From: an uncultured Bacteroidia bacterium
GTDB taxonomy: Bacteria; Bacteroidota; Bacteroidia; Bacteroidales; UBA932
Direction: 5' to 3'
Length of the DNA stretch: 64,000 nucleotides
NCBI GenBank assembly: GCA_902779765.1
Contig: CACZCQ010000002.1
Coordinates: forward strand, 1 to 64,000
In this document: one piece after another, positions 1,311 through 47,261 of the stretch
Layout of the letters: each line of letters starts with the position of its first letter
Position numbering within the stretch: position 1 is the first letter of the stretch
Program-made: the position numbers and the translations under genes
Notes under the pieces: generated by a model
The model's database searches: none
Seen by the model: the letters and a program-made list of their open reading frames with translations, nothing else
Told to the model about the DNA's origin: nothing

Positions 1311-2936
1311 TTACCTGTTTTTAGCGGCCAGGTGACGTTTGGCCGTCTGGATGCATTCCCTGCGGCATATCACCACAGATACTCCGTGATAATTGATTTC
1401 CTCTTCAATCACCTTTTCCATCTCGGGATAATTCTTCGGGAGCGGGACGATGGTCCTGATATGGTCCTCTTCCACTCCAATGGCTGCACATATCCTTTCG
1501 AGCTTGCCGGTCCCGGCAGAATCCTGGCCTCCTGTCATTCCGGTGGTCAGGTTGTCGGAGATGCAGAGCGTGATGTCCGCCTTTGAATTGACGGCATCCA
1601 GCAGACCGGTCATTCCGCTGTGGGTGAACGTAGAGTCTCCGATGACTCCGACCGACGGCCACACTCCGGAATTGGCAGCTCCTATAGCCATCGTGAGCGA
1701 AGCCCCCATTTCCACGCAGGAATGGATGGCATTGAAAGGAGACATATAGCCCAAGGTGTAGCAGCCTATGTCGCCGAATACCTTCGCTCCGTCATATTTC
1801 TTCAGGACAGCGTTCAAAGCGGTATAGAAATCCCTGTGGCCACAACCCTGGCAGAGTGCCGGCGGACGCGGGACAGTCATCTTAGCCTCTCCGAAGGCAT
1901 CCAGCGGCTCGAGACCGAGAGCATTCCTGACATGGTCGGGATTCAGCTCACCGGTCCTTGGAAGGGTTCCGTCAAGACGTCCCTTCACCTTGACAAAGCC
2001 ATTGCCTTCATTTTCGTCATACAGCAGCCCCCTGAGTTTCTCCTCAATCAGCGGCTGCCCCTCCTCGATGACCAGGATTGTCTTGCAGGACCCGGTCATC
2101 TTCTTAAGAAGCCTTGTCGGGAATGGATAACGGGTAACCTTAAGGACAGGATACTGGCAACCTTCGGGAAAATTCTCCATCAGGTAATTATATGCGATTC
2201 CGCATGTAACGATCCCACGGCTGTGGTCGGGGCCGTCCTTATACATATTATCGCCGGACAGCTCGGAATCCTGACGGAACTTGGCTTGCTCCTCTGCCAG
2301 TTCCTTGACACGTGCCCTGGATATCCCAGGCAGGGTGACCCAGAATCTTTCCCGGTCCTTCGGAGGGAAATGAAGTTCGTTCTCTGGGGCCGGTTGGTGA
2401 GCCTGTCGAACCACCGCACGGGAATGCGCCATACGCGTGGTGAGTCGCATCAGGACGGGAATATGGTTGGCTTCGGAGTAATCAAAAGCCTCCTGGACCA
2501 TATCGTAGGCTTCCTGCTGGTTGGACGGCTCGAAGCAAGGCATCATTGCAAAGTCTGCATAGAAGCGAGAATCCTGCTCGTTCTGGGATGAGTGCTGGGA
2601 AGGATCGTCGCAGGCAGCGATGACCAGACCTCCGTTGGCACCGGTCACGGCTGAATTGACGAAAGCATCGGCGCAGACATTCATTCCTACGTGTTTCATG
2701 CAGACAAGGGCGCGCTTGCCGGCAAACGATACTCCGAGGGCAGCTTCCATAGCTGTCTTTTCGTTGGTACACCAGTCGCAGTGGATGCCGCGTTCCTTTG
2801 CCAAAGGATGCCGCTGGATATACTCCGTAATCTCGGTCGAGGGGGTTCCCGGATAGGCATAGACTCCCGAAAGACCGGCATGCAGGGCACCCAGTGCCAA
2901 TGCCTCGTCTCCCAGAAGAAGGTGTTTGTCAACCAT
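1311..2936 (-). CDS. iorA: Indolepyruvate oxidoreductase alpha subunit (IorA) lacking the C-terminal ferredoxin domain
   Basis: 541 residues. The N-terminal pyrimidine domain has YAYPGTPSTEI near residues 27-36. The thiamine-diphosphate domain shows ALCQGCGHRDFY, then GDIGCYTLG, then GDSTFTHSG with a downstream Asn, matching the GDG-type Mg/ThDP site. Classical IorA proteins continue into a Cys-rich 4Fe-4S ferredoxin domain. This one stops after CRRECIQTAKRHLAAKNR with no such cluster motif, as I recall for other Bacteroidetes. Residues about 175-182 read VVRQAHQP and are encoded by a short palindromic repeat (2391-2414) absent from typical family members. It heads the operon with iorB and the aminotransferase. 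Confidence 0.93.
   Translation of the reverse strand: MVDKHLLLGDEALALGALHAGLSGVYAYPGTPSTEITEYIQRHPLAKERGIHCDWCTNEKTAMEAALGVSFAGKRALVCMKHVGMNVCADAFVNSAVTGANGGLVIAACDDPSQHSSQNEQDSRFYADFAMMPCFEPSNQQEAYDMVQEAFDYSEANHIPVLMRLTTRMAHSRAVVRQAHQPAPENELHFPPKDRERFWVTLPGISRARVKELAEEQAKFRQDSELSGDNMYKDGPDHSRGIVTCGIAYNYLMENFPEGCQYPVLKVTRYPFPTRLLKKMTGSCKTILVIEEGQPLIEEKLRGLLYDENEGNGFVKVKGRLDGTLPRTGELNPDHVRNALGLEPLDAFGEAKMTVPRPPALCQGCGHRDFYTALNAVLKKYDGAKVFGDIGCYTLGYMSPFNAIHSCVEMGASLTMAIGAANSGVWPSVGVIGDSTFTHSGMTGLLDAVNSKADITLCISDNLTTGMTGGQDSAGTGKLERICAAIGVEEDHIRTIVPLPKNYPEMEKVIEEEINYHGVSVVICRRECIQTAKRHLAAKNR
2391..2414. repeat. In-frame palindromic repeat unit inside iorA
   Basis: On the iorA coding strand the core reads GTTCGACAGGCTCACCAAC and is translated VVRQAHQP. 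The same unit, allowing a few substitutions, occurs in the DegT aminotransferase at 7191-7224 and the S9 peptidase at 44561-44649. It contains no stop in the frame used and falls between the conserved MAHSRAVV and PENEL segments of IorA, consistent with a tolerated loop insertion. Confidence 0.75.
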
Positions 2937-2965
2937 TGTTATAAAGTTTTCGTGTTATTCCGTTA

Positions 2966-2996
2966 CAAGTTACGAAATTTTCGGAATAATCAAAAA
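2966..2996 (-). promoter_or_regulatory. iorA: Possible iorA promoter
   Basis: Read on the minus strand, TTTTTG (2996-2991) is followed after about 18 bases by TAACTTG (2972-2966), about 30 bases before the iorA ATG. This resembles the Bacteroidetes -33 TTTG / -7 TAnnTTTG arrangement, but the -7 box is imperfect. It lies in the 111-bp gap after the dehydratase gene. Confidence 0.3.
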
Positions 2997-3047
2997 TTTC
3001 TTCCGATTTCAAATCAGAAGAACACGAAAGATAATGAAAAGGGATTC

Positions 3048-4970
3048 CTACCTGTCCAGCACTGAGAATGCGGAATGGTTGCTGACGTATTCCGGGACGA
3101 TCTGTTTCATCGCAGCCACGGTCTTCATGTCGTCATATTCGTATGAGATCTCGATTAGGCGGTCGATCTGATCGCAAATGGAAGCATAGTCATATTCGCG
3201 GACGGTGGCGATTCGGATCTTCTCGTTGAATGAGGGCTTGGTGGATTCCTCGGAGTCGAGCACTTCTTCATAAAGCTTTTCGCCGTCACGGAGTCCGGTA
3301 TACTTGATTTCAACTTCTTGCACGCCGCTGAGTTCAATCATCCTCTTCGCAAGGTCGGCTATGCGTACGGGCTTGCCCATGTCGAAAGCGAATATCTCGC
3401 CACCCTCCCCTTTCGTTCCGGCCTCAAGGACGAGCTTGCAAGCCTCGGGAATCAGCATGAAATACCTGACGATGTCGGGATGAGTCACGGTCACAGGACC
3501 GCCTTGCTTGATCTGGCGTTCGAATATCGGGATAACGGAACCGTTGGATCCCAGCACGTTGCCGAAACGGGTCGTTATGAATTGGGTATGTCCTTCGACC
3601 TCGCCCTCCTTCTCGGCCTTGTTCAGGCTCTGGACGTAAATCTCGCAGATACGCTTGGAACAACCCATCACGTTCGTCGGATTGACAGCCTTGTCGGTGG
3701 AGATCATAACGAATTTGGAAACTCCGTACTTGACCGAAAGGTCGGCGATTATCTTGGTCCCCTGGACGTTGTTCTGGATGCTCTCCGAAGGATTATACTC
3801 CATCATCGGAACGTGCTTGTAGGCAGCAGCATGGAAGACGTAGTCCGGACGGAAGTTCCTGAATATGGCTTCCATATGGGATTCGTTCACGATGCTGGTG
3901 ACGATGGTCGAGGTCTTGACGGCAGGATATTCACGGGCCATCATCAGCCTGATATCATGCTGCGGGGTCTCGGCCGAATCGATGAGCATCATCTCCGAGG
4001 GACCGAACGAAGCGACCTGATGCACGATCTCGCTTCCGATGCTGCCCGCCGAGCCTGTGATGAGTATCTTCTTGTCCCGGATATCTTTGGCAATCGAGTC
4101 CATGTCTATCTGGATCTCGTCGCGTGGCAGCAGGTCCTCGATCTTTACCTCGCTGATGGTCGCTGTCCCAAGGAGAGAGTCCTTGTCCCACTCCACCGCG
4201 GCATGGGAGAAATAGATCTTTGCTCCGGAACTGAGGATATAGTCCTGAAGCACAGTATCGTTACGGAAACGGTCAATCCTTCCCGGAGCGACGAGAACGG
4301 CCCTGATGCGACGTTTCTGCAATTCCTCGGGGAGGCTGTCATCTACGTCGAACACCGGCTCACCCATCAGGACGGTACCCTTGGCGCGAAGCGATGGGTC
4401 ATGGGAGATGAAACCACGGAGCTTGAAACGCATCGGCTTCTCGCCACGGATCGATTTGGCAAGTCCGATTCCTCCGGCGCGGATGCCGTAGATGAAAGCG
4501 GCTTGAGCTGCTTCGGTACGGAAGAAGGCGTCATAGACAGCCTTGATAACGATCCTGGCCAGCCACATGAGAGCCGTGGCCAACACGAATGTTACAAGCA
4601 GGAACCTGGCCGTAAGGTGGGCAAACAGCCAAGCCGGAGTCCCACTCAAAGGATAATGGATCAGGAATGCCACGATAAACGAGCATGCCATGGCCATCCC
4701 GATCCGGATCAAGTCGCTGAAAGATGAGTAGCGGATTATGCCCGTATATGTCTTGAAAACCCTGAAGAAGATACAGGTAATCGCAAGATAAATCAGCATC
4801 ACCCGCATCAATGGCAGGAAGTTACCTACCAGGAATGAAGCGCTGTGGAAAGCCCAGTAGACAACAATGCTGGAGAAAAGCAGGATAATGCAATCTATCA
4901 GAAGCACACACCAATAAGGAAGTGCCCCTTTTGAGAAATACCAGTCTATGATGTCCTTAAAGCTCCTCAT
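3048..4970 (-). CDS. Membrane nucleotide-sugar 4,6-dehydratase (CapD/WbpM/PglF family)
   Basis: 640 residues with about four N-terminal membrane helices (roughly 15-120), a CoA-binding-like middle domain, and a C-terminal extended SDR domain with the NAD-binding motif GSAGSIGSEI near residue 305. The catalytic Tyr of the usual YxxxK is replaced by Met: NVMGCSKR places Met435 and Lys439. This is the known signature of large WbpM/PglF-type UDP-GlcNAc 4,6-dehydratases. The YKHVPMME motif confirms the family. It likely makes the 4-keto-6-deoxy precursor used by the DegT aminotransferase two genes upstream. It is the last gene of a three-gene minus-strand set beginning at 7363. Confidence 0.92.
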   Translation of the reverse strand: MRSFKDIIDWYFSKGALPYWCVLLIDCIILLFSSIVVYWAFHSASFLVGNFLPLMRVMLIYLAITCIFFRVFKTYTGIIRYSSFSDLIRIGMAMACSFIVAFLIHYPLSGTPAWLFAHLTARFLLVTFVLATALMWLARIVIKAVYDAFFRTEAAQAAFIYGIRAGGIGLAKSIRGEKPMRFKLRGFISHDPSLRAKGTVLMGEPVFDVDDSLPEELQKRRIRAVLVAPGRIDRFRNDTVLQDYILSSGAKIYFSHAAVEWDKDSLLGTATISEVKIEDLLPRDEIQIDMDSIAKDIRDKKILITGSAGSIGSEIVHQVASFGPSEMMLIDSAETPQHDIRLMMAREYPAVKTSTIVTSIVNESHMEAIFRNFRPDYVFHAAAYKHVPMMEYNPSESIQNNVQGTKIIADLSVKYGVSKFVMISTDKAVNPTNVMGCSKRICEIYVQSLNKAEKEGEVEGHTQFITTRFGNVLGSNGSVIPIFERQIKQGGPVTVTHPDIVRYFMLIPEACKLVLEAGTKGEGGEIFAFDMGKPVRIADLAKRMIELSGVQEVEIKYTGLRDGEKLYEEVLDSEESTKPSFNEKIRIATVREYDYASICDQIDRLIEISYEYDDMKTVAAMKQIVPEYVSNHSAFSVLDR

Positions 4971-5006
4971 GACTCCAACTTAACAAATATAAGCATAAAT
5001 GGAGAT

Positions 5007-6089
5007 TTATTTCCATAAATGATACAAGATTTTAGTCTTGTACTCTTGAAATGCAATGTTACCGAACATCGGTATGACTTTCAGGTATCTCCGTGTAATG
5101 ACAATGAAATGCTTCGACGTATCCAGGAAACGATGACCGGACTCTGCCCATCTCTCATCCCATTCGTGGCCGAAATTACCCTCTTTCATAATCATCCCAA
5201 GCACCTTGTCGGATTCTCTTTTAACTGAAAGATCGAAAAAAGGCATATCTCCTTCCGGCAATCCAAGCTGGCGTACGGCAATCAGGCCGAACACTTTCCA
5301 TGGTTTGACCAGGTCCAGTTCATCTAGCATCCGGAAGAGACTCTTCCTGTCGATGCTGGACTGGTTGGCATGGAGTAACAACGACCAGTCACATATCTGC
5401 CTGAAACCGACTCCCGCCGCTACGAAATGACTCCAGATATGTTCAAGGATATACATTACATTAAATGTCGGACCTGGAGTATGTACGATGATGTCATCTA
5501 CATCAACCGATCCACAATCGCTGGCAATACCGGCATCAGAAAAACTCTGAAAAGCATCGTTGTATCTTGGAACAAGTACATCAGCAAATTGATGAAGCTC
5601 TATCGGTATGCCCTTAGTGACAATGGTAGAGTGCTTTTCAGACTCTTCAAACTTCTTTTCCTCAATGCATGCGATGTTGTCGGAAAGTATGTCGAAAGCC
5701 CTCTTGTATTGGTCTGGCCTTACATAAAGGTCGATATCTCCACACTCCCGCAGAAGGGGCTGATGGTAGTATGAAGCCACTCCATGCCCCTTAAGAAGGA
5801 TAGGTTCAATACCACCGCTGCGCAAGGCCTTGACAGCATCGGCAAGGATGTGCGAAATCTTGAAATTCATCGCAGCGATGGAAAGAATCTTCTTCTGAAG
5901 CATCTCGGATGCCTTAGGATGCATGCGACCCGTGTTCAGCAGTCCCTGGGCCACAAGTCCGCTGACAGCCTGTTTCTGCGCATCGGCCCAAATCCTCTTG
6001 AAATCGGCACCACGCAGGTCAGCCTCAGGAGCCTTGTTCCAGAGACCGGCCCGAAGGACCGAACAGAAGATGTCGATATAGCTGTCCAT
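5007..6089 (-). CDS. Nucleotidyltransferase-family protein (PF14907-like)
   Basis: 360 residues. The motifs ILLKGHGVASYYHQP and ECGDIDLYV (about residues 97-140) match the uncharacterised nucleotidyltransferase family often found in polysaccharide loci; the GDIDLY acidic pair would bind metal. The rest is alpha-helical and poorly conserved, with no signal peptide or membrane span. It begins two bases after the DegT aminotransferase stop, and the dehydratase follows after 36 bases, so all three are probably cotranscribed. The transferred group and its target are unknown. The length and context argue against the small MNT half of a toxin-antitoxin pair. Confidence 0.75.
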   Translation of the reverse strand: MDSYIDIFCSVLRAGLWNKAPEADLRGADFKRIWADAQKQAVSGLVAQGLLNTGRMHPKASEMLQKKILSIAAMNFKISHILADAVKALRSGGIEPILLKGHGVASYYHQPLLRECGDIDLYVRPDQYKRAFDILSDNIACIEEKKFEESEKHSTIVTKGIPIELHQFADVLVPRYNDAFQSFSDAGIASDCGSVDVDDIIVHTPGPTFNVMYILEHIWSHFVAAGVGFRQICDWSLLLHANQSSIDRKSLFRMLDELDLVKPWKVFGLIAVRQLGLPEGDMPFFDLSVKRESDKVLGMIMKEGNFGHEWDERWAESGHRFLDTSKHFIVITRRYLKVIPMFGNIAFQEYKTKILYHLWK

Positions 6090-6091
6090 CC

Positions 6092-7363
6092 CTATACCTC
6101 GATGGCTTCCTTGATCTTGGATACTATATACTTGACATCCTCATCCGTGACACAAGGGCCTGCGGGCAGGCAGAGTCCTTTCTTGAATATGGCTTCAGAG
6201 ACACCATTCACATATGCAGGGGCATTTCTGTAGACAGGCTGCCTGTGCATGGGCTTCCACAAAGGCCTGGCTTCGATTCCGGCCTCGTCGAGGAACATCC
6301 TGATGGCCTCGACATTAGTATTCGGCTCGCAATCCGTGTGTACTCCACCGCCGGCATGTATTACGCCGGCAGCACCACCGATGGCTTTGGTAATCGCCTC
6401 TGCATAAGCTCTCTCCTGCCCTTTTATCTTCAAGTCTTCATCAAGCGTGAGAGTACAGAGCCAGAAGTTTGAATCAAAGCGAGGGTCAGTCTGGCCATGG
6501 ACATGGATTCCCTTAACATCAGCAAGAAGCGCCTCATACATCTTCTGGACATGGCGGTGATGGGCAAGATGGTCATTGATTACCGTCATCTGGCCGCGAC
6601 CGATTCCGGCACAGATATTCGACAGGCGGTAATTGTAACCGATCGACTCATGCTGGTAGTATGGATATGCCTCTCTGGCCTGGGTGGCGTACCACATTAT
6701 CTTGTTCTTAGCCTCCATGTCCGGGCATATCAGGGCACCTCCGCCGGAGGTCGTGATCATCTTGTTGCCGTTGAAACTCAGGACGCCGTAATCTCCGAAG
6801 GTCCCGAGCACCCGCCCGTCGAACCGGCTGCCGAAGCCCTCGGCGGCATCTTCAATGACAGGGATGCCGTATTTTCGGGATATCTCCATGTATCGGTCAA
6901 TACGGTAAGGCATTCCGTATAAGGCAACGGGAACGATGGCCTTAGGCTTCCTTCCAGTCTTTGCGATACGGTCGGCAATCGCCTTGTCCAGCAGGTCCGG
7001 ATCCATATTCCAGGAATCCTCCTCTGAATCTACGAATACCGGGGTTGCGCCAAGGTATGTCACGGGATGGGATGACGCGCAGAAGGTAAAACTCTGGACC
7101 ATCACCTCGTCCCCGGGTCCCACTCCGCATGCAATCAACGCCAGATGAACCGCCGCCGTCCCAGAACTCAGTGCTACCACCTCCTTACTTGTTGGTGAGC
7201 TTGTCGAACCACTTGAGCCTGTTACAAATCTCTTCAAATCCTCCTCAAACCCATTGACATTCGGACCGAGCGGAACGACCCAGTTCGTATCGAATGCCTC
7301 CTGGATGTATTTCATCTCATTTCCACTCATATGAGCGAGACAGAGATATATTCTTTTACCCAT
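6092..7363 (-). CDS. DegT/DnrJ/EryC1/StrS-family sugar aminotransferase
   Basis: 423 residues. SSGTAAVHLAL (about 66-76), EDAAEGFGS (about 171-179) and FNGNKMITTSGGG with Schiff-base Lys201 define the family. The C-terminal RPLWKPMHRQPVY region is typical of enzymes that aminate nucleotide 4-keto-6-deoxy sugars. With the 4,6-dehydratase downstream it could make a UDP-4-amino-4,6-dideoxy-hexosamine (PglE-like); this pairing is inference. Residues about 47-60 (TGSSGSTSSPTS) are extra relative to the usual family alignment and are encoded by tandem palindromic repeat units at 7191-7224. A promoter box lies 25 bases upstream of the ATG. Confidence 0.9.
   Translation of the reverse strand: MGKRIYLCLAHMSGNEMKYIQEAFDTNWVVPLGPNVNGFEEDLKRFVTGSSGSTSSPTSKEVVALSSGTAAVHLALIACGVGPGDEVMVQSFTFCASSHPVTYLGATPVFVDSEEDSWNMDPDLLDKAIADRIAKTGRKPKAIVPVALYGMPYRIDRYMEISRKYGIPVIEDAAEGFGSRFDGRVLGTFGDYGVLSFNGNKMITTSGGGALICPDMEAKNKIMWYATQAREAYPYYQHESIGYNYRLSNICAGIGRGQMTVINDHLAHHRHVQKMYEALLADVKGIHVHGQTDPRFDSNFWLCTLTLDEDLKIKGQERAYAEAITKAIGGAAGVIHAGGGVHTDCEPNTNVEAIRMFLDEAGIEARPLWKPMHRQPVYRNAPAYVNGVSEAIFKKGLCLPAGPCVTDEDVKYIVSKIKEAIEV
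7191..7224. repeat. In-frame palindromic repeat (about 1.5 units) inside the DegT aminotransferase
   Basis: The coding strand has a partial unit ACAGGCTCAAGTGG followed directly by a full unit TTCGACAAGCTCACCAAC. It is translated TGSS-GSTSSPTS, a different frame from the copy in iorA (VVRQAHQP). It sits before the VVALSSGTA motif of the aminotransferase. Confidence 0.72.
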
Positions 7364-7387
7364 AGAAAGTCAAAGTCTTAAGCGGTA

Positions 7388-7395
7388 CAAAGATA
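7388..7395 (-). promoter_or_regulatory. -7 promoter box for the aminotransferase/nucleotidyltransferase/dehydratase genes
   Basis: On the minus strand the site reads TATCTTTG, an exact match to the Bacteroidetes -7 consensus TAnnTTTG. It lies 25 bases upstream of the ATG at 7363. It is one arm of a symmetric sequence whose other arm is the plus-strand box at 7404-7411. No clear -33 TTTG was found. Confidence 0.55.
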
Positions 7396-7403
7396 ATATT
7401 TTT

Positions 7404-7411
7404 TATCTTTG
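7404..7411 (+). promoter_or_regulatory. -7 promoter box for the sulfatase
   Basis: TATCTTTG matches TAnnTTTG and ends 23 bases before the sulfatase ATG at 7435. It is divergent from, and symmetric with, the minus-strand box at 7388-7395; the arms CAAAGATAA and TTATCTTTG are perfect inverted repeats separated by six bases. Confidence 0.55.
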
Positions 7412-7434
7412 TCTTTAACCAGATCGATCTCCAA

Positions 7435-9018
<1,584 letters not shown>

Positions 9019-9020
9019 AT

Positions 9021-9050
9021 CCGCTCGCCGGCGTAATCGATACGGCGGCC
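9021..9050. repeat. Copy 1 of a 30-bp direct repeat bracketing the 9.0-12.9 kb segment
   Basis: CTCGCCGGCGTAATCGATA here matches CTCGCCGGCATAATCGATA at 12911-12940. About 26 of 30 bases agree, in the same orientation. On the minus strand both copies can be read RIDYAGER-like, and here an upstream DLKMIFATVLG-like stretch (about 9051-9081) continues the frame, suggesting a remnant of a gene 3' end. It immediately follows the sulfatase stop. Confidence 0.6.
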
Positions 9051-9158
9051 GAGAACAGTAGCGAAAATCATCTTGAGATCAGTCTAGAAAGAATAGTTGC
9101 GAAGTTAAAATAAGTATAGGAAAGTATAATAAATCAACACTTATTTTATCCCATAAAC

Positions 9159-9166
9159 TAGTTTTG
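9159..9166 (+). promoter_or_regulatory. -7 promoter box for the acyltransferase
   Basis: TAGTTTTG fits TAnnTTTG and lies 28 bases before the ATG at 9194 in an A+T-rich gap. No convincing -33 element was found. Confidence 0.45.
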
Positions 9167-9193
9167 TGCCTAGCATGAATTATTTATTAATAA

Positions 9194-10267: not shown

Positions 10268-10640
10268 CATTTTCACGGATAAAGAAATGAACGCTCCTAG
10301 AAGGGATTATTATCATGGAGAATAGGATTCACCTGTTACTTGTCACATTCTATTTATCTCAAACACTAATTCATACGCACTCGATGGAGCGCAACTCTCC
10401 ATTTAATGACCACTTACTAAAGCGTATTAGACATACAGACTAACTCAGCAGAAAAAACTCCACTTTAGGGAAACTGATACAACTATATAAATGATCCAAT
10501 CAAGGAAACAGACGAGTAATAAAAAATGCAACTTAAAAGATCATATGTCCCACAAGAAAGCCGACAACAGAAGCATGTGGAGAGATTCAAGGGGGAATCA
10601 ATGGAATACTAACACTGGTCAACTCCTTTTTCCAACGTTG
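10268..10640. other. A+T-rich gap without a recognisable gene
   Basis: No convincing coding sequence or RNA gene was seen on either strand. The sequence separates the acyltransferase from the sulfatase pseudogene and shows no clear similarity to the upstream part of the intact sulfatase, so the 5' end of the duplicate is lost rather than merely frameshifted. Confidence 0.5.
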
Positions 10641-11562: not shown

Positions 11563-11829
11563 AAATGCCATCAACGGAAATCAGTAACCGGTATGATCAA
11601 CTTATATTTTACTGCTTGATGGCAATATAATCGAATGTATCAAACACGATATTGTAATACTTGATGGCTTATCTGCAGACCAAGTATTCATAGTGTAAGT
11701 CTCAAATGTAAGAATAGATCTTACAAGTAACATATGAGGGAACAGGCAGTAAAAGAAATTACTATATGAAGCCCTCAAGAGGGCAAGGGTAAAACAAGGG
11801 CAACGGTCGTTAAGCGGTTAAGCATAACA

Positions 11830-12873: not shown

Positions 12874-12910
12874 ATAATACCTCTAAATACTATTAAATAC
12901 CCTTTCAAAC

Positions 12911-12940
12911 CCTCTCGCCGGCATAATCGATAAGGCGCGA
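12911..12940. repeat. Copy 2 of the 30-bp direct repeat
   Basis: Matches 9021-9050 with about four differences, in the same orientation. It lies between the GT2 gene and the ATP-grasp gene. Together the copies enclose the acyltransferase, the sulfatase pseudogene and the GT2 gene (about 3.9 kb). Confidence 0.6.
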
Positions 12941-36378: not shown

Positions 36379-36396
36379 TTATTAATAATTAAAAAC

Positions 36397-37341: not shown

Positions 37342-37352
37342 AATAATATTAA

Positions 37353-39422: not shown

Positions 39423-40132
39423 GCCAGCATCAAATCTTTGAGTTGAGCGAGAGTGGATTCCTTGAGTTTGATGTCGGTGTACTGCTTCCGGATTGCGCGG
39501 AACCTATGGCAGTCGGAGCCGACCATGGTATAGAATCCCTTGTCGAGTAGCTTCTGGGCCTTGACTTGGACTTCTTCTCCATAAGCTCCGAGAATAGAAG
39601 GGAGGTTGAGTTGGAGGACTGTACCCATTGTGCGTAGACGCTCATAATCTTTCATGGTCATGTAGCGGTAACGCTCCGGATGAGCGATGAGGGGACGATA
39701 GCCATAGCTCATCATCCTTTCAAGAATCTCCCAAAGATCGATTGGCGGAGCCCAAGTCGAGGTCTCGACCAGGACGGTATCGCGTCCGTGAGTAAGAAGG
39801 TCACGCTCCTCAAGCCGCTGCTCGAAAAGGGTGTCGATCATGTATTCAGAAGCCAAAAGAAGCTCGATAGGGCCGGAATAGATAGCCTTGAGCTCTGCAA
39901 AACGAGATTTCAGCCCCTCAGAAGTATTCGGGACATCCTCCATGGTGTGAGGAGTAAGCCAGAGTGTCTTCAGGCCCAGTTCCTCGTAAAGGTCGAGAAT
40001 CGCGAGGGTATCTTCCTGGGTCTTGACTCCGTCATCCAGTCCCCACAGGATGTGGGAATGATTGTCAGTGGCCCCACGGAGGAGGCCACTCGCTTCTATT
40101 GTCTTTTTTGGTTTGAGGAATCCGAACATCAA
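39419..40132 (-). CDS. PHP-domain tyrosine-protein phosphatase (CpsB/YwqE type)
   Basis: 237 residues. DNHSHILWGLDDGVKTQED supplies the N-terminal metal-binding His residues, LIAHPERYRYM the middle one and GSDCHRF the C-terminal Asp/His, matching the PHP phosphoesterases that dephosphorylate capsule tyrosine kinases. Start and kinase stop overlap by four bases, as does its stop with the beta-helix gene. It presumably resets the Tyr-rich tail of the adjacent kinase, controlling chain length and export. Confidence 0.9.
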   Translation of the reverse strand: MMFGFLKPKKTIEASGLLRGATDNHSHILWGLDDGVKTQEDTLAILDLYEELGLKTLWLTPHTMEDVPNTSEGLKSRFAELKAIYSGPIELLLASEYMIDTLFEQRLEERDLLTHGRDTVLVETSTWAPPIDLWEILERMMSYGYRPLIAHPERYRYMTMKDYERLRTMGTVLQLNLPSILGAYGEEVQVKAQKLLDKGFYTMVGSDCHRFRAIRKQYTDIKLKESTLAQLKDLMLA

Positions 40133-42618
40133 TCCTTGCCCTTCTTTTTCTTCTTGCCGTCCTCATCGTCCTGCTCTCCATAGCTGCCGTAACCGTAGCC
40201 ATAGCCATGACCCTTACCATAGCCATAACTGCCGTATCCGTAGCCATAGCTTCCGCTGCCGTAGTGCTGACCATAGGTGCCCTGCATCCTCTCGACTCCG
40301 TTGAGGATAAAGGCCATCCGGCTATAGTTGCCCCTGGCATAAAGCTCATCAAGGGCGGGCAGTGCCTGCTTGTCGAAGAGACCGGCTCGGATAATGAAAA
40401 CAGTTATGTCGGCGCTATGGGAGATGATCGAGGTGTCGGCCACGATGTCCACCGGAGGGCAGTCCATGAAGATGTATTGGTACTCATCCCTCATTGAGGC
40501 AATCATCTGCTTGAACTTGTCTGAAACGAGGAGTTCAGCGGGGTTGGGGGGCAACGAACCAACCGGAAGGATCGAAAGGCTCTCTGCGACTTCCTGGATA
40601 TGCGGATGGTAATCATCTGCGCGTCCATTGAGGAACGACGCTACTCCGGAGCCTTTAACCCCAAGGGCCTTGCTCAAGGAAGCTTTGCGAAGGTCGAGGT
40701 CCAGGAGAAGCACCTTCGAGCCCTTGACCGCCATGGAAGCGGCCATATTCATGGTCGTAAAGGTCTTACCGGCATTGGGGTTGAATGAGGTGACCATCAC
40801 CACATGGCAGGCATCAGTGTAGCCGGTCATCATGTCGAGGTTGGTCCTCAGGACCCTGAACGCCTCGTTGACGACATCACGCTTACCCTGCTGGACCATG
40901 ATCTTGTTGCTCTTTTCGTCAAACCGGTTAGGTTTACGGAAACTGAAGAAGCTCTTCTTCTCGAGTCCCATCTGTGGGATCTCTGCAAGGAAGGGTACCT
41001 TCAGCTTCGCCACATCTGCCCTGGAGCGGACGGTTGTATTGAAAAGGATGCGCAGGAAGAAGATGGCGAAGGGAATTCCAAGGCCTAGCAGGAGTGCGAT
41101 CAGATATATCTTCTTGGCTACAGGGGATATCGGGACCCCATTGGTAGCCGACTGTATCAGCCTGTTGTTCGAGACATTCAGCTGGGTCGCGAGTTCGTTC
41201 TCCTCACGCTTCTGGAGGAGGTAGATGTACAGGGACTCCTTGACCTTCTGGTCGCGGCTCATGGACTGGAGTTCAAGAGCCTGGCCAGTAGTAGAACTAA
41301 GTTTTCCCATGATCGCACCCTCCTGGGCCATGATCTTGTTCTGCTGAAGTTGGAGGGCCGAGATGTTGTTGTCGATGGACCGCGTGATATTGGCCTTCAT
41401 CGCATCCAGGTTGGCATTGAGGTCAGCGACCATAGGATTGGCCTCTGAACTCTCGCTGAGGTACTTGTCCCTCTTCATGAGGGTAGCGTTGTACTCGCTG
41501 ATCTGGCCTTCGATATTGGCATTCGTAAGACCTGAATTCGAAGGGAGCAAGGTGCTGCTCTGGGTCGGATCGGTCAGACGGTCCCGAATCATCTGCGATA
41601 TCGCGAGTTGGTTGCTGTTGGCAAAGGCTTTCTCCGAATAAGCAGAAGATTCAGCAAGATACTGGCCGGATACGGCACCGACATCGGTGATTCTGTTCTG
41701 CTGCTTGTATTCCTTGATGTCGTTGTCTATGTCGCCGAGTTCCTGCTGGAGGATCACGAGCCTCTCGGCTATGAACTCGGATGTATTGGCGGCCGCCCTG
41801 TTCTTGTTCTCGACCCACTGTTCGTTGTAGATGTCGAGTACTGTTGCAAGGATATTCCTGGCGCGCTCAGGGGTATAGTCGGTCATAGATAGAGTCACAA
41901 CCGATGACTCATCCCTGGAAGCGGATACCCCCATGCGGCCGGCATAGGCCGCTGCCCTGCTCCGTGCATTTGCCCAGGAGACACGTATATCATCACCCCA
42001 GGTGTGGAAATAATTTGATTCTGTAAGGCGGATGCTCCCCACAGGAGTAACCAGGGAGTCCCCGAAGGAGCCGACTATAGGCTTCGCCTCCATCTCGACA
42101 CCGCCTACCGTGAAACTGTCAAGGATGAATGAACTCTTGTCCCTCTTCCTGACTATGAACGAGAAAGAAGAGGCTCCGTTGTCTTCTCCGAGGATCGACA
42201 TGAAGTACGGGGTCTTGTTGTATAGTTCCCGCTCACGCATCAGCATCAGGTCGGTATAGTTGGTCTCAAGACCCAGGCGTTCGACAGCCTTCGTCATCAG
42301 GTCCGAAGACTTGAAGGCCACGATCTCATTGGCCACGTTCTGGCCGTAATATGACCGGCGCCTCATGGATGCAGACATGTCGCTCAGTACATCTGCACTC
42401 TGATCAGTCTCGATGATAATCTTTTCCGTGCTCTGGTAGAGCTTCGGTGTGCGGTAAAGATAGAAATATGCAATAGCACCTGCCAGGATCAGCGAGAGCA
42501 AGTACCACCATTTGTGCCCCCAGAAAAGGGCCCATATATCACGGATAGAGAAAAGCTTCTCGTCGGAATCATCCTGGGCGGACCAGGACTGCATGTCAAG
42601 TTCTTCTGCCATAATCAT
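40129..42618 (-). CDS. wzc: Polysaccharide co-polymerase and tyrosine autokinase (Wzc/BY-kinase)
   Basis: 829 residues. A Wzz-type domain with a first membrane helix near residues 35-53, a long periplasmic coiled-coil region (about 250-480), and a second helix near 510 precede the cytoplasmic BY-kinase domain: Walker A FNPNAGKTFTTM near 611, Walker A' LLLDLDLRKAS near 640 and Walker B YIFMDCPPVD near 718. The C-terminal tail from about residue 775 carries 11 tyrosines in glycine-rich GYG and GSYG repeats, then an acidic/lysine-rich end; these are the expected autophosphorylation sites. It overlaps both the Wza-like and phosphatase genes by four bases. Confidence 0.93.
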   Translation of the reverse strand: MIMAEELDMQSWSAQDDSDEKLFSIRDIWALFWGHKWWYLLSLILAGAIAYFYLYRTPKLYQSTEKIIIETDQSADVLSDMSASMRRRSYYGQNVANEIVAFKSSDLMTKAVERLGLETNYTDLMLMRERELYNKTPYFMSILGEDNGASSFSFIVRKRDKSSFILDSFTVGGVEMEAKPIVGSFGDSLVTPVGSIRLTESNYFHTWGDDIRVSWANARSRAAAYAGRMGVSASRDESSVVTLSMTDYTPERARNILATVLDIYNEQWVENKNRAAANTSEFIAERLVILQQELGDIDNDIKEYKQQNRITDVGAVSGQYLAESSAYSEKAFANSNQLAISQMIRDRLTDPTQSSTLLPSNSGLTNANIEGQISEYNATLMKRDKYLSESSEANPMVADLNANLDAMKANITRSIDNNISALQLQQNKIMAQEGAIMGKLSSTTGQALELQSMSRDQKVKESLYIYLLQKREENELATQLNVSNNRLIQSATNGVPISPVAKKIYLIALLLGLGIPFAIFFLRILFNTTVRSRADVAKLKVPFLAEIPQMGLEKKSFFSFRKPNRFDEKSNKIMVQQGKRDVVNEAFRVLRTNLDMMTGYTDACHVVMVTSFNPNAGKTFTTMNMAASMAVKGSKVLLLDLDLRKASLSKALGVKGSGVASFLNGRADDYHPHIQEVAESLSILPVGSLPPNPAELLVSDKFKQMIASMRDEYQYIFMDCPPVDIVADTSIISHSADITVFIIRAGLFDKQALPALDELYARGNYSRMAFILNGVERMQGTYGQHYGSGSYGYGYGSYGYGKGHGYGYGYGSYGEQDDEDGKKKKKGKD
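40180..40284. repeat. Low-complexity GYG-coding tandem repeats in the kinase tail
   Basis: Degenerate 6-12 bp units related to CCATAGCCGTAACC (minus strand GGTTACGGCTATGG) encode the alternating Gly-Tyr tail. The arrangement could expand or contract by slippage in multiples of six bases, changing tyrosine number without a frameshift. Confidence 0.7.
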
Positions 42619-43460
42619 TTGCTTAAAAATTCTCCATTCTGAATTGCTATGATCATCAATGTAGTCATAGCAAGTGATGATGCCATAGAAACCATAGATG
42701 TCCAGAATGTTACACTTCTAAGATTATTCTCGTTAACCTTGGATTGGCCAGCACGGACCTTATTCGGGTAAACATAGATTACATCACTTTGCTGAAGATA
42801 ATATGCCGGGGAATTGAAGATCTCAGTATCACGAAGGTCGAGATGATAGAAAGTCCTCTCCTTGCCCTGCTCGCGGAGCACCGTAATGTTGTCACGCTTT
42901 CCCATGATGGTAAGGTCTCCGGCCAAACTGAGGGCCTGAAGGATAGTAACCTTGTCGCCGGCAATCGTATAGGTACCGGGAGAACCGACCTCACCCAACA
43001 CCGAGACCTTGAAATTCAGGAATTCGACCGTCACTGTCGGATCCTTCAGGAGGTTACGGTCGATCAGTTCCTGTCGGACATAGTTGGACAGTTCCCAACG
43101 GTTCATCCCTGCCACATGGATCTGACCAAGCCCAGCCATATTGATGTTTCCACTGTTGTCAACGACATAACCCATAACGCCATTAGTACTGCCACCAGCA
43201 TTATCCCCTTCTCCGCTCATAGAATTGTTGACCCGCACTAGATTGAACATCGCCGCCAGATCCGGGGTCCTTGCAGATACCACTATCGAAATCTTGTCCT
43301 GGGGTTGGATAACGATTCCCCTGTTGACAGCCATCGGGAGGGACATGTCCTCTTCGACATCCTGGAAATAAGCTATGTTCTTGTAGGTCCTGCGACCGCA
43401 AGAAGCTGCCACCACGACCAGGGCCGCAAGCAACAGCAGTTTTAAATGTGTTTTAAGCAT
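42615..43460 (-). CDS. wza: Polysaccharide export outer-membrane lipoprotein (Wza-like)
   Basis: 281 residues. The signal peptide ends in a lipobox with Cys21 (VVAASC). The polysaccharide-export domain is seen around IQPQDKISIVVSARTPDLAA, followed by SLBB-type segments (VSVLGEVGSPGTYTIAGDKV). A hydrophobic segment near residues 252-272 (TFWTSMVSMASSLAMTTLMI) fits the C-terminal amphipathic or membrane helix that lines the outer-membrane pore. The gene lies 11 bases downstream of the antiterminator gene and overlaps the autokinase start by four bases. Confidence 0.92.
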   Translation of the reverse strand: MLKTHLKLLLLAALVVVAASCGRRTYKNIAYFQDVEEDMSLPMAVNRGIVIQPQDKISIVVSARTPDLAAMFNLVRVNNSMSGEGDNAGGSTNGVMGYVVDNSGNINMAGLGQIHVAGMNRWELSNYVRQELIDRNLLKDPTVTVEFLNFKVSVLGEVGSPGTYTIAGDKVTILQALSLAGDLTIMGKRDNITVLREQGKERTFYHLDLRDTEIFNSPAYYLQQSDVIYVYPNKVRAGQSKVNENNLRSVTFWTSMVSMASSLAMTTLMIIAIQNGEFLSK

Positions 43461-43471
43461 TGGTATTGGAT

Positions 43472-44014
43472 TTAATATTTATTTTCTTCGATCTTTTCGA
43501 GGCATGACGGAGGGATGAACCTCGTCGCAAAGGCGGCCACTCCCTCTATGGTGACGATCAGCTTCCGGTCGTGGCGGATGCGCTTGATATGGCCTTCGAA
43601 GCCTTTGAATATCCCTTCAGTCACCCTCACGCGGTCTCCCAGATGATACTTGGCATCGTCGCCGCCAAGGTATTCAAGTCCGGAATCCCTCATCTCACAG
43701 AGCTTGATGAACTGGTCCATCTGCCTGCCGGGAACCACGAGCGGAGAATGTTCCGACTTGTCATAGTAAAGCGCGATGGAACCCCCGAACTTTGAGCGCA
43801 TCAGGTGAAGACGATCAAGGGTGGTCCTCACGAACAGTAGTGAACGGACAAGTGGCTCGGGAACGAACTTAAGGCCGGAGGGTGTCGGTTTCTCGACCAG
43901 GCGGGTCGGGTAGAAATACTCGACGTCAGATTCGTCCAGTGCGGTCTTGATCATTTCCGCCCTGCCGAAGAATACCCTGATGGGGTACCAATTCGTCTTG
44001 ATTTGTTCAGCCAC
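43472..44014 (-). CDS. upxY: UpxY-family transcription antiterminator (NusG paralogue)
   Basis: 180 residues. The N-terminal NGN domain begins NWYPIRVFFGRAEMIKTAL and includes PLVRSLLFVRTT; the C-terminal KOW domain is LGDRVRVTEGIFKGFEGHIK. Such proteins act on RNA polymerase in the 5' leader of their own capsule operon and prevent early termination in long polysaccharide transcripts. This is the first gene of the minus-strand locus, behind a structured leader. No UpxZ-like partner gene was found beside it. Confidence 0.92.
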   Translation of the reverse strand: MAEQIKTNWYPIRVFFGRAEMIKTALDESDVEYFYPTRLVEKPTPSGLKFVPEPLVRSLLFVRTTLDRLHLMRSKFGGSIALYYDKSEHSPLVVPGRQMDQFIKLCEMRDSGLEYLGGDDAKYHLGDRVRVTEGIFKGFEGHIKRIRHDRKLIVTIEGVAAFATRFIPPSCLEKIEENKY

Positions 44015-44231
44015 AGTAATCTACCAGAATCAGGCCTCTTTGTATCAGTATTTGTCAGATGCGACCATTTACCCGGCTAGGGCGCGAAGCGCAGGGAGCA
44101 TCGACAAATACTGATACAACAAAAAGTGTCCCCTGGCAAATGCCAGAGTACCCTACGGTCGTCAGCCTTTCGATGCCTGATCCCGGACCGCTCCAATCCA
44201 AGAGCCCTTTCCGCAACCGATTTAAAACTTA
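44015..44231 (-). promoter_or_regulatory. Structured 5' leader of the polysaccharide operon
   Basis: Between the promoter-like box at 44232-44239 and the antiterminator gene lie about 210 noncoding bases that can form three stem-loops. These are CGGTC/GACCG enclosing TCAG/CTGA (44156-44190), CTGGCAAATGCCAG (about 44133-44146), and a long stem of 21 pairs with one bulged base (44041-44062 with 44098-44118; 16 pairs are perfect at the base). No U-run follows the last stem on the minus strand, so it is not an ordinary intrinsic terminator. It is a plausible site for UpxY loading or pausing. Confidence 0.55.
44041..44118. repeat. Long inverted repeat in the operon leader
   Basis: TGTATCAGTATTTGTC at 44041-44056 is the exact reverse complement of 44103-44118, and GATGC/GCATC (44058-44062, 44098-44102) extends it with a single bulged A. 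The loop between is about 35 bases. It contains no TAnnTTTG box in either direction. Confidence 0.8.
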
Positions 44232-44239
44232 CAAATTTA
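44232..44239 (-). promoter_or_regulatory. -7 promoter box for the polysaccharide operon
   Basis: The minus strand reads TAAATTTG, an exact TAnnTTTG match. Start of transcription near 44225 would give a leader of about 210 bases before the antiterminator ATG at 44014. No strong -33 TTTG is seen at the expected distance; the area upstream is A+T-rich. Confidence 0.5.
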
Positions 44240-44289
44240 GCCATTTTCGCCCTAAAATAAAATATATATTAAATAAGAATGATTTTTAC

Positions 44290-44297
44290 TATCTTTG
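44290..44297 (+). promoter_or_regulatory. -7 promoter box for the S9 peptidase
   Basis: TATCTTTG matches TAnnTTTG and lies about 50 bases upstream of the ATG at 44349, in the divergent region shared with the polysaccharide operon. Confidence 0.55.
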
Positions 44298-44348
44298 AAA
44301 AAGGGCTCCTGACAGCCTGAAACGGACTTTTACGGAAACAATTAATCA

Positions 44349-47261
44349 ATGATAGATATGAACATCAAGTTACTGCAACTTGCGGCACTATGTGCCGCAC
44401 TGTACATGCCTGCCCAGGTGTCTGCGCAGAAAAAACCTCTCGATCACGATGTCTACGACTCCTGGCAGAGTGTCTCAGGTGTAAAGATGAGTGACGACGG
44501 GAAGGTTCTGGTGTGGAATGTCAACCCGCAGGAGGGAGATGGGACGTTGTATATCAAAACGGTTGGTGAGCCCCGTCGAATCACCGGCCCTTCGGCAAGC
44601 TCAGGGACCGGAAAGGCCAAAGTCCTCCGACAGGCTCAGAGTCCGAAGGAAGTCGCCGTTCCCCGCGGCTACCAGCCGACGATTGATCCTGCCGGAAGAT
44701 GGGTAGTCTGCCGTATCAAGCCAGAATTCGCCAAGACGCGCAAGGAACGCATCGACAAGAAAAAGAAGGATGACCAGTCCAAAGATACGCTTGCGGTAAT
44801 CGATATTACTTCAATGGTAATCAAAAAGTTCGCATCAGTGGATTCATATTCATCAGGATCTTTCGGGATGCCTTTCATCGCATACAAGTCATCCTGGAAG
44901 GAGGCCAAGAAGGCTAAGTCAGGCCTGATACTCCTGACACCCGGAACCTGGCAAGCGGACACGTTGAAAAATGTCGACAGCTACACTTTCAGCAACAGCG
45001 GGTCACTCCTGGCGCTGACCACCAAGAAGGACAAGAAGGATTCGCTATCGGCGACCTCCATCATCCTCGCCAGCTATCCGGCATCCGGAGTCCTGACCTT
45101 AGACACTCTCAAGAAGGGTGCTGAGCAGTATTATCATCCTGTTTTCGACGATGCCGAGGCACAGCTCGCGTTCACGGCTACGACCGACACCAACAAGACC
45201 GGCAGCAAGAGGTGCGGGATGTACCTGGCGGGCCTGAAAAACGGCCCTTCGACTAGCTCAGGAACCGTTACGGAACTCATTCCCCAGGGCACTAAGGTCG
45301 CCGGAACCGACGGATGGACTCTCACGGAAAACAGCAGCATGTATTTCACTCCTGACGGCAGCAGGATCATGACCGGGATTGCCCCTGTGAGGCCCCCGAA
45401 GGATACTACCATCGTTGACTTCGAGACTGCACAGTTAGACATATGGAACTGGGATGCCCCCTACACCCCGCCGCAGCAGAAGAAAAGGCTGGATGCGACG
45501 CTGAAGAAGACGTATCCTGCGGTAATCAACCTCGGCCCTTCGGCAGGCTCTATCATCCCTCTCACAACTTCAGCTTTCGACAATATCAGACTGATCGCAG
45601 GAGGCAAGACGGGCCTTGCCCTCTCGCGAGACAATTCTGAATATGCCCGCGAATCGATGTGGGTGGACGGCAGCTTCGCCGACTATTACCTGGTCAAAAT
45701 AAATGACGGCAGCCGCAAGCTGATCGCCAAGAATTACAACGCAGGACGCTTCGATGTTTCTCCAGGAGGCAACTACCTTATATGGTTTGACAGCAACGAG
45801 AAACAGTGGTATACCTACAATATCGCTTCAGGTGCCAAGGCCAACCTCACCGCCAAGACCGGAGTCGCTTTCTACACCGAGGACGACGACCATCCGTCAG
45901 CCTATCCGGGAGCTTACGAAGGATCTCCCAAATGGCTGGATAACGACCAGGCCGTCCTTATCATAGACCGCTATGACGTCTGGAAGTTCGCTCCCGACGG
46001 ATCCAAGGCCGAGAACCTTACCGGCGGAGTCGGACGCCAGACCCGAAACAGGTTCAGGACCATGGACTTGAGGCAGGACAAGCGCACTGACAGCGAGCGC
46101 AGGAGTGGGGTGATCAATGCCTTCAAGGCCAAGGATGACCTTTTCCTCAGCCTCATCAACGAGGACGACAAAAAGAACGGCTACGGAAGGCTGAACCTTG
46201 CCAAACCGACCAAGACACTCAAGTATTTCACGGACACGGTAACCTTCCAGGGTCCCCAGATGGCCCCGGACGGCAGTATAGCCTTCCTGAAGGGCAACTT
46301 CCGCCACCCCTTCGACCTGTACAGAACCACCGATTTCTTCGCTTCCAGTGAGAAACTCTCCGCCATCAACCCGCAGATGGCCGACTACCGCTGGGGCAGC
46401 GCCAACCTGTTCGAGTGGAAAGCCTACGATGGGACGCCCCTGAAGGGTCTCGTATTCATACCTGACGGCATCAAGCCAGGCGAAAAACTGCCCGTCATGA
46501 TATATTTCTACGAGAAATATTCGGACCAGCTCTACAACTTCTGGCAGCCTGCCCCTTCCCGCTCGACGGTCAACCTTAGTTTCTATACCTCAAGGGGTTA
46601 CGTTGTATTTGTCCCGGACATCGTCTACAAGGACGGCCACCCCGGAGAGAGCGCATACAACTGCATCTGTTCAGGTGCCGAAGCCCTCTGTGAGAAGTAT
46701 CCATTCGCCGACAGGAGCAAGATGGCCATCCAGGGCCAGAGCTGGGGCGGCTACCAGACAGCCTGGCTCGTTACGCGTACGAATATGTTCGCGGCCGCAG
46801 GTGCTGGAGCACCGGTCAGCAACATGACCTCGGCTTACGGCGGAATCCGCTGGGAATCAGGAATGACGCGCGCCGGACAGTATGAACATGGCCAGAGCCG
46901 CATCGGAAAGACCCTCTGGGACGAAGGCGGGCTCGACCTTTACATCGAAAACTCCCCCATCTTCCACGCCGACAAGGTCGAGACTCCCCTGCTGATCATG
47001 CATAATGACAATGACGGGGCCGTGCCGTGGTACCAGGGAATCGAATATTTCTCCGACCTGAGGCGTCTCGGCAAGCCCTGCTGGCTCCTTGAATATAACA
47101 ACGAAGCCCACAACCTGGTGGAGCGCCGCAACTGCAAGGACCTCTCCAGGAGGCTCCAGCAGTTCTTCGACCACTACCTCAAAGGCGAACCGATGCCAGC
47201 CTGGATGAAGTCCGGAGTTCCTACCGACCGCAAGGGAGAGTACTTCGGTTTCGAGTATTAG
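44349..47261 (+). CDS. Secreted S9-family peptidase (prolyl-oligopeptidase type)
   Basis: 970 residues with a signal peptide (about 1-26, ending VSAQ). A beta-propeller-like region leads into the C-terminal alpha/beta-hydrolase domain with nucleophile Ser798 in GQSWGGYQ, Asp889 in HNDNDGAVPW and His921 in NNEAHNLVERRN. It should cleave peptides in the periplasm. The propeller half contains up to five short segments encoded by a palindromic repeat: VGEPRRIT, GPSASSGT, VLRQAQSPK, GPSTSSGT and GPSAGS. It converges with and overlaps the LytTR gene by three bases at their stops. Confidence 0.92.
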   Translation: MIDMNIKLLQLAALCAALYMPAQVSAQKKPLDHDVYDSWQSVSGVKMSDDGKVLVWNVNPQEGDGTLYIKTVGEPRRITGPSASSGTGKAKVLRQAQSPKEVAVPRGYQPTIDPAGRWVVCRIKPEFAKTRKERIDKKKKDDQSKDTLAVIDITSMVIKKFASVDSYSSGSFGMPFIAYKSSWKEAKKAKSGLILLTPGTWQADTLKNVDSYTFSNSGSLLALTTKKDKKDSLSATSIILASYPASGVLTLDTLKKGAEQYYHPVFDDAEAQLAFTATTDTNKTGSKRCGMYLAGLKNGPSTSSGTVTELIPQGTKVAGTDGWTLTENSSMYFTPDGSRIMTGIAPVRPPKDTTIVDFETAQLDIWNWDAPYTPPQQKKRLDATLKKTYPAVINLGPSAGSIIPLTTSAFDNIRLIAGGKTGLALSRDNSEYARESMWVDGSFADYYLVKINDGSRKLIAKNYNAGRFDVSPGGNYLIWFDSNEKQWYTYNIASGAKANLTAKTGVAFYTEDDDHPSAYPGAYEGSPKWLDNDQAVLIIDRYDVWKFAPDGSKAENLTGGVGRQTRNRFRTMDLRQDKRTDSERRSGVINAFKAKDDLFLSLINEDDKKNGYGRLNLAKPTKTLKYFTDTVTFQGPQMAPDGSIAFLKGNFRHPFDLYRTTDFFASSEKLSAINPQMADYRWGSANLFEWKAYDGTPLKGLVFIPDGIKPGEKLPVMIYFYEKYSDQLYNFWQPAPSRSTVNLSFYTSRGYVVFVPDIVYKDGHPGESAYNCICSGAEALCEKYPFADRSKMAIQGQSWGGYQTAWLVTRTNMFAAAGAGAPVSNMTSAYGGIRWESGMTRAGQYEHGQSRIGKTLWDEGGLDLYIENSPIFHADKVETPLLIMHNDNDGAVPWYQGIEYFSDLRRLGKPCWLLEYNNEAHNLVERRNCKDLSRRLQQFFDHYLKGEPMPAWMKSGVPTDRKGEYFGFEY
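44561..44649. repeat. Cluster of three palindromic repeat units inside the S9 peptidase
   Basis: Unit a (44561-44585, GGTTGGTGAGCCCCGTCGAA) is inverted relative to unit b (44586-44609, CCTTCGGCAAGCTCAGGGACC without its first C), so the two can form a hairpin. Unit c (44622-44649, CCTCCGACAGGCTCAGAGTC) follows. They are read VGEPRRIT, GPSASSGT and VLRQAQSPK, that is, in three different frames of the same element. Confidence 0.78.
45244..45266. repeat. Palindromic repeat unit inside the S9 peptidase
   Basis: CCCTTCGACTAGCTCAGGAA, translated GPSTSSGT, matching unit b of the 44.6-kb cluster with a few differences. Confidence 0.72.
45536..45558. repeat. Degenerate palindromic repeat unit inside the S9 peptidase
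   Basis: CCCTTCGGCAGGCTCTATCA, translated GPSAGSII; only the first half of the unit is well kept, so this may be an old copy or chance. Confidence 0.5.

Follow-up and report, generated by a model that had tools for sequence, protein, structure and literature searches.

The window analysed here is a stretch of 64,000 nucleotides from an uncultured Bacteroidales bacterium (UBA932; assembly GCA_902779765.1, contig CACZCQ010000002.1, positions 1-64,000), and it carries copies of a palindromic DNA repeat of about 26 bp, built around the core TTCGRCARGCTCA and termed family A, inside three genes. These are iorA, encoding the alpha subunit of indolepyruvate ferredoxin oxidoreductase (1311..2936, minus strand), a DegT/DnrJ/EryC1/StrS aminotransferase gene (PF01041; 6092..7363, minus strand) and a gene for an S9 family peptidase (44349..47261, plus strand), in whose close homologues PF00326 is found. 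The iorA copy (2390..2415, minus strand) has the form GGTGG-core-CCAACCGG and is read as VVRQAHQP, and that in the DegT/DnrJ/EryC1 aminotransferase (7191..7212, minus strand) is read as GSTSSPT. The units in the S9 gene all lie on the plus strand: a degenerate antisense unit (44561..44586, read as VGEPRRIT); in loop 1, a copy read as GPSASSGT (44584..44611) and a decayed one read as VLRQAQSPK (44621..44646), with one core mismatch and one of three stem pairs kept; in loop 2, a copy read as GPSTSSGT (45241..45269); and in loop 3, a half element that has lost its 3' arm, read as GPSAGS (45534..45551). Exact cores are present at 2398-2410 (minus), 7196-7208 (minus) and 44591-44603 (plus), and one-mismatch cores at 44626, 45248, 45539 and 58236, the last without a palindromic flank. 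With up to two mismatches the window has 20 core matches against 4.7 expected, and 20 was reached by none of 100 shuffles. The original prediction had placed copies at these sites with their translations, and was right in both; the frames used are LRQAQ (iorA and S9), PSTSSG (DegT and S9) and antisense VGEP (S9), so that its reading of three frames in both orientations without a stop is borne out in the window.

The consensus, given for the TGAGC strand, reads CCGGT-CCC-TGAGCYTGTCGAA-GGG; a second form reads CCGGT-TGG-TGAGCYTGTCGAA-CCA. Among the 54 exact copies in the whole genome, the outer stem pairs -1/+1, -2/+2 and -3/+3 are Watson-Crick in 48, 48 and 45 copies respectively, being C-G in 35-38 and a compensatory G-C or T-A in 10-11. 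The inner stem after these three pairs runs T-A, G.A, A.G, G-C, where the pairing status of G.A is a matter of definition. The tag CCGGT is one-sided, each of its bases being kept in 39-48 of the 54 copies while the opposite end is less conserved, and in the consensus fold some pairing of its outer bases with the opposite flank is possible. The hairpin with its one-sided tag is a REP-like design. In addition, 12 of the 54 exact copies, against 2.8 expected, have a truncated half unit (CCCTTCGAC-like) immediately upstream of the core.

Folded as RNA, the two consensus forms reach -9.0 to -12.5 kcal/mol, a range obtained without a shuffle control, and this, together with the compensatory stem changes, could indicate that a function at the mRNA or DNA level, such as stability, attenuation or protein binding, maintains the hairpin and that the peptide is incidental. 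We regard such a function as an unlikely reason for the repeat, as covariation is also expected if mobility alone needs the hairpin, and the variable loops, the unrelated host genes, the use of both orientations and the strong frame bias described below are not predicted by an RNA role.

A search of the whole genome (2.48 Mb in 31 contigs) gave 54 exact cores and none for the reversed-pattern control, and with up to one mismatch 120 sites against 17 for the reversed pattern; the outcome named as refuting the original prediction, no more copies than expected by chance, was thus not seen. That the peptides are chance or convergent low-complexity loops rich in Gly, Ser and Pro, with no mobile element behind them, might be thought from the likeness of PSTSSG peptides to ordinary linkers. 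The control counts (54 vs 0) refute this, and with the identity at the DNA level, the several frames, both strands and the conserved flanks they leave it a probability close to nil.

The DNA around all 54 exact copies was analysed together with that around 30 of the 66 one-mismatch sites, and genes were predicted by our own dicodon caller, trained on the window. A palindromic-flank filter, requiring at least two of the three outer pairs, was passed by 49 of the 54 exact copies, of which 41 are genic and eight intergenic. The claim that no copy is intergenic therefore stands in the window and fails for the genome. The 41 genic copies are read as antisense PELVE (18), sense PSTSSG (14) or sense LRQAQ (9); none of them uses FDKL or LSLSK, which are also open, or the frame closed by TGA. 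If the five open frames were equally used, which is the assumption made by the null, this would have a probability of 0.6^41 = 8e-10 (chi-square p 2e-6). The five exact copies failing the filter, including those in the DNA ligase and serpin genes, comprise two FDKL and one each of LSLSK, PELVE and PSTSSG, and without the filter the genic frames are PELVE 19, PSTSSG 15, LRQAQ 9, FDKL 2 and LSLSK 1. An origin of the frame bias in natural matches was considered and rejected, since dropping these five copies sharpens the bias. Thirteen of the 30 one-mismatch sites passed the filter (LRQAQ 4, PELVE 4, PSTSSG 2, LSLSK 1, intergenic 2). The rare frames do exist: the 34 genic copies of three sister genomes include three LSLSK and one FDKL, and the 11 genic palindromic one-mismatch copies of the window's genome include one LSLSK.

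The genic share, 41 of 49, is close to the coding share of the analysed DNA (0.91; binomial p 0.08), which does not demonstrate a positive preference for genes. Were genic hits mostly harmful, one would expect a majority of intergenic copies, such as is found elsewhere, and the window's genome does not have one. A near-random genic share combined with strict frame use may mean either that many hits have been purged, with intergenic losses too, or that permissive coding sites are the preferred targets of insertion.

Before filtering, the 46 genic exact copies are spread over 43 ORFs. Pfam scans, which left out S9, iorA and one low-scoring ORF, gave matches with E up to 0.001 in 39 of the 40 host ORFs scanned, one of them, a TPR protein, being below Pfam's own cut-off. 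The hosts, for some of which the short gene names are our own assignment, include ribosomal protein S2 (rpsB), DXS, DnaG, SSB, PriA, RelA/SpoT, a Mur ligase, TilS, TruB, a RadA-like ATPase, a semialdehyde dehydrogenase, thiamin pyrophosphokinase and AdoHcyase; the copies in four others that were scanned (DNA ligase, serpin, a PEP-utiliser domain protein and DHFR) all fail the filter. In a two-domain GDPD protein the element, at residue 284, lies between domains spanning residues 29-269 and 304-566. A tandem in-frame array of GGTTCGACTCCGCTCACCAACC units was also observed in a GDPD protein linker (L302).

In the predicted structure of the S9 peptidase (mean pLDDT 73.6, and so indicative only) the three sites fall in coils, two of them with pLDDT under 50: loop 1 lies between strands 66-71 and 101-105, with pLDDT < 50 over residues 75-96, loop 2 between strands 290-295 and 307-311, and loop 3 is a coil after strand 389-394. 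In the iorA model, which is likewise indicative only (mean pLDDT 71.8), the element begins at a predicted strand end and runs into coil. As a description of the class, the "surface loops" of the original prediction are not supported as worded, as the hosts include DXS, DnaG, TilS and S2; "permissive loops, linkers and termini" fits better.

Orthologues from distant genera with the same residues in unrelated codons had been named beforehand as evidence that would speak against an element; this test did not refute the prediction, as orthologues lack the residues. For iorA, four proteins 92-98% identical share VVRQAHQP, and five at 88-91% carry other residues, four of these having nearly the same total length; one close contrast is between 92% identity with the element residues and 90% without. 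The iorA protein has 541 aa, and of sixteen orthologues without these residues (P0006-P0021) fifteen have 539-544 and one 527. Judged from these sequences, the element in iorA is a replacement of a variable loop at nearly unchanged length and not a plain insertion. Elsewhere residues are gained: DXS has 633 aa here vs 626 in many 82% identical homologues without the element, a gain of 7-8 residues, and thiamin pyrophosphokinase gains 10-11, in both cases relative to orthologues without any palindrome. The word "inserted" thus suits DXS and thiamin pyrophosphokinase (7-11 residues) and does not suit iorA. PSTGSG-like loops were counted by eye in 23 of 120 close homologues of DXS, including some 97% and 93% identical, three being the genome's own. 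The DegT orthologue L173 is without the loop, and L252, L162 and L174 have other sequence there; this gene stands outside the count of 12 hosts given below.

The S9 peptidase varies in the same way. A close relative (P0122, 97% identity) is without part of the 44561..44586 unit, one loop is filled across relatives by GPSTSSGT, ALRQAQGT or LRSFDKLRTAPAQGP, and the loops of other relatives hold RSAQDD, HSERSEES or VIPGLTGDL peptides, the DNA being repeat-like at the loci checked. That three S9 loops are filled by different palindromes across species might suggest adaptive diversification, in which the element is favoured for changing protein surfaces or binding. This seems improbable: for the most part the hosts are housekeeping enzymes without a shared theme, and the near same-length replacement in iorA and the two low-confidence loops of S9 suggest tolerance instead. 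The window's genome comes in 31 contigs, and most of the relatives named for it are metagenome assemblies, so that an assembly or binning artefact had to be considered; this is very improbable, as the same element is found in the same place in other database proteins (P0002-P0005 for iorA, P0244 for DXS and P0122 for S9).

Twelve host genes were compared across eight genomes of the genus, a thirteenth site being left out, and 50 orthologous loop windows of the 96 possible pairs were analysed (30 located loci and 20 stretches picked before their sequence was seen). A TGAG-N4..9-CGAA hairpin is present in 15 of the 50, in eight of the 12 hosts, whereas the remainder of these loci would predict 0.41. 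The hairpin pattern was drawn up once the repeats were known, and the windows are not independent of one another, four of them coming from U32. Seven of the eight positive hosts have, in their orthologues, a palindrome that differs in type or frame from the one here. The RelA loop reads PSTGSG here and CHPERSEG in other species, the UDP-sugar dehydrogenase loop PELVEG here and CHSERSEES or nested CHSERCPELVEGRSEES in others, and the AdoHcyase loop LRQAQ here and LRCAQDD in others. In semialdehyde dehydrogenase the orthologue palindrome matches in both type and frame and could have been inherited. The compared orthologues of the other four hosts (thiamin pyrophosphokinase, DXS, the Mur ligase and TruB) have no palindrome. 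Repeated hits on, or rewriting of, a permissive loop would explain why orthologues hold different palindromes at one loop.

A second family, B, has the TGAG..CGAA core in common with A. The dominant family differs between species, the counts of A (searched with one more fixed base) and B being 41/2 in the window's genome, 7/69 in G071, 1/59 in G188, 53/73 in G089 and 0/0 in G092. In the sister species G071, 35 of the 69 B copies were read, with no flank filter: 21 are genic and 14 intergenic. The genic ones use all four open frames (CHPERSEG 7, VILSEAKD 7, LRSAQDD 5, FASLRMT 2) and none the closed frames, and some genes carry several copies, as in the four of an S9 gene. The base after CTCAG (loci L324-L343) is A in 14 of 14 intergenic copies and G in 17 of 21 genic ones (Fisher p 2e-6), and AATGAC follows the core in all 14 intergenic copies. 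Sub-families of B therefore differ by location in the G071 sample.

Copies of A are also nested in the apex of B hairpins, several times in G048 (L254-L263; EILRSALRQAQGSAQDD, CHPETCPELAEGRSEGS) and also in G089 (L306; CHSERCPELVEGRSEES), in frame where genic. Such nesting is what would be seen if loops were rewritten serially and not struck by fresh insertions, a loop once seeded being converted in place by insertion at the apex or by template switching between TGAG-CGAA hairpins. The core common to A and B, the excess of upstream half units noted above, and AdoHcyase and U32, where the LRQAQ of this genome corresponds in phase to the LRCAQ or LRSAQ of others, point the same way. Residues are, however, also gained beside palindrome-free orthologues (thiamin pyrophosphokinase +10/11, DXS +7/8), and the frame of several loops differs from one species to another, an outcome not expected of simple loop conversion. 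Serial rewriting is accordingly a possibility that we keep in play while leaning against it. A broader proposal, which we make tentatively and with slightly less than even confidence, is that the REPs of this genus have diverged into sub-families living in genes and others living between them, the former acting as a genus-wide loop-writing system through which the same permissive housekeeping loops are filled, emptied and refilled by palindromes of differing family and frame in the course of species divergence. If that were true, these loops would be the fastest-changing parts of essential enzymes.

At least one copy was found in 47 of 61 sampled genomes of the genus, and the window's genome has the most (54). 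Exact TTCGACARGCTCA is present in 159 of 296 sampled genomes of the phylum, with at least 30 copies in eight, the window's included. The habit of the repeat was compared between the genomes with most copies among the 61 and an outside group of four more distant Bacteroidota whose places were listed. Genic copies make up 16 of 21 in the sister genome G039, nine of 10 in G003 (12 of 13 copies analysed, two dropped by the flank filter) and nine of 12 in G048 (one of 13 dropped), and, among the copies listed outside the genus, four of 15 in G311, one of 14 in G356, one of 13 in G371 and none of 11 in G348 (two of 13 dropped by the filter). The four species of the genus, including the window's, together have 75 genic and 17 intergenic copies against six genic and 47 intergenic for the four outside it (Fisher p 3e-17), and genic location thus marks the window's genus relative to more distant Bacteroidota. 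The original prediction placed similar short repeats of other bacterial genomes mainly between genes, which holds true of the same core in these four genomes.

The tags differ as well. With a lax match, a GTC-type tag, which is the published CGTC/TGTC type, is present in 33 of the 47 intergenic copies outside the genus, as a TGAC-like tag (GTCA on the other strand) in 12 of 12 in G371, eight of 11 in G311, eight of 11 in G348 and five of 13 in G356. The TGA of the G371 consensus tag closes the PSTSSG frame, whereas the CCGGT form leaves it open. In G311 (L200, L204) flanks like GGGACC or GGGTCC accompany three of the four genic copies, in similar proteins, in place of the TGAC found at most intergenic ones. 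Of 300 genomes of the genus, the nearest one found has a DNA identity of about 72-78%, and at this distance no target-site footprint could be read. As to a possible viral vehicle, fourteen viral contig stretches in IMG/VR (L344-L357) hold a 21-base form of the element.

The dispersed copies, the compensatory hairpin, the one-sided tag, the frame use, the genic habit and the related palindromes at the same loops are, in our judgement, probably the outcome of a REP-type family that is mainly genic in this genus, spreads through its hairpin and is kept in frame in tolerant loops, linkers or termini. Copying would proceed through a DNA hairpin, probably single-stranded, by the action of some protein. 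The copies would be translated and harmless, surviving only where they are read in frame and where the loop, linker or terminus concerned can bear added or exchanged residues; PELVE, PSTSSG and LRQAQ may be kept as their peptides fit loops, with FDKL and LSLSK mostly lost. A shift of the tag from (C/T)GTC to CCGGT may have helped coding use by removing the in-frame TGA from the PSTSSG frame, and a permissive loop has probably been hit or rewritten repeatedly. Repeats known mainly from intergenic DNA would in this case appear as a recurrent source of new loops in essential genes, drawing on more than one family and read in several frames. The long-argued proposal, made for Rickettsia, that selfish palindromes make protein sequence becomes testable with orthologous loops, some holding palindromes and others not, as natural replicates in a genus of >300 species; coding palindromes have reportedly been found in Methanocaldococcus too. 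The annotation of Bacteroidales proteins is also affected, as loop peptides such as PSTGSGT, PVPELVEG, HPERSEG or RSAQDD can be repeat-encoded.

REPs are imperfect, high-copy palindromes of 20-40 nt, mainly extragenic, with a conserved unpaired tag at one end. The element agrees in palindrome, copy number and one-sided tag and departs in being genic in 41 of 49 copies in the window's genome, whereas outside the genus the core is extragenic in the same sense (47 of 53 intergenic). The CGTC superfamily is presented in Di Nocera 2013 (PMC3733652) as a short imperfect palindrome with an unpaired tag at one end, compensatory stem variants, some intragenic copies and no linked transposase, reported in Bacteroidetes, with the short RPE-4 and RPE-6 equated with CGTC repeats; its members have a CGTC, TGTC or CCTC tag, A-T at the first two stem positions, a stem of 8-9 bp and a loop of 4-5. 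By that description the element resembles the superfamily in its one-end tag and compensatory stem changes and is set apart by its CCGGT tag, a stem starting CCC or TGG and not A-T, and its mostly genic habit. The Rickettsia palindromic elements, as described in PMC2229807, are in-frame palindromes of 105-146 bp in many unrelated conserved protein genes, and the likeness in idea that was originally proposed, a protein-coding palindromic element, is upheld by the many copies in several frames, on both strands and in loops; the element, again by description, is about 26 bp long and from another phylum. The coding-capable MITEs ERIC and Yersinia YPAL (127-168 bp, fused in frame to genes, in the same review) are also small in-frame repeats, but the element is far shorter. 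Searches of the open-access literature, outside of which most subscription papers lie, with the DNA strings of the element and the loop peptides gave only one chance match, a hedgehog paper, and no description was found there of a CCGGT-tagged family with a mainly coding habit or of several families refilling the same loops. The kind of element is already known; the CCGGT-tagged, mainly coding family and the loop refilling were not found described in these searches.

The GTAG REPs, REPINs and RAYT systems share a hairpin and tag with the element, but it is without the GTAG tag and does not flank the Y1_Tnp genes, whose end repeats differ. Four such genes are present in the window's genome, ending with repeats of their own. 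Their number (1-6 per genome) does not track that of the repeat: G092 has two Y1_Tnp genes and no copy of A or B, and G082 has four, with no A and three B. A RAYT gene had been suggested as something to look for. A copy of the element lies <1 kb from two of the four ORFs, inside neighbouring genes, seemingly more often than copy density would suggest, and a link may exist. On contig C8 (L073) a one-mismatch copy is about 0.4 kb from the Y1_Tnp ORF, in an ORF which we take to be ksgA, and on C3 a copy lies about 0.9 kb away inside an MFS gene. A RAYT as the mobiliser was set aside, with the reservation given by these two copies within 1 kb, as the Y1_Tnp ends carry other repeats and the gene numbers do not follow the element, and no mobilising gene could be tied to it among the Y1_Tnp genes and their ends. 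The Y1_Tnp loci L071, L072 and L073 have direct and inverted terminal repeats of their own, such as AACCACATG/CATGTGGTT units, about 52 bp long, next to L072, and are candidate TIRYT units.
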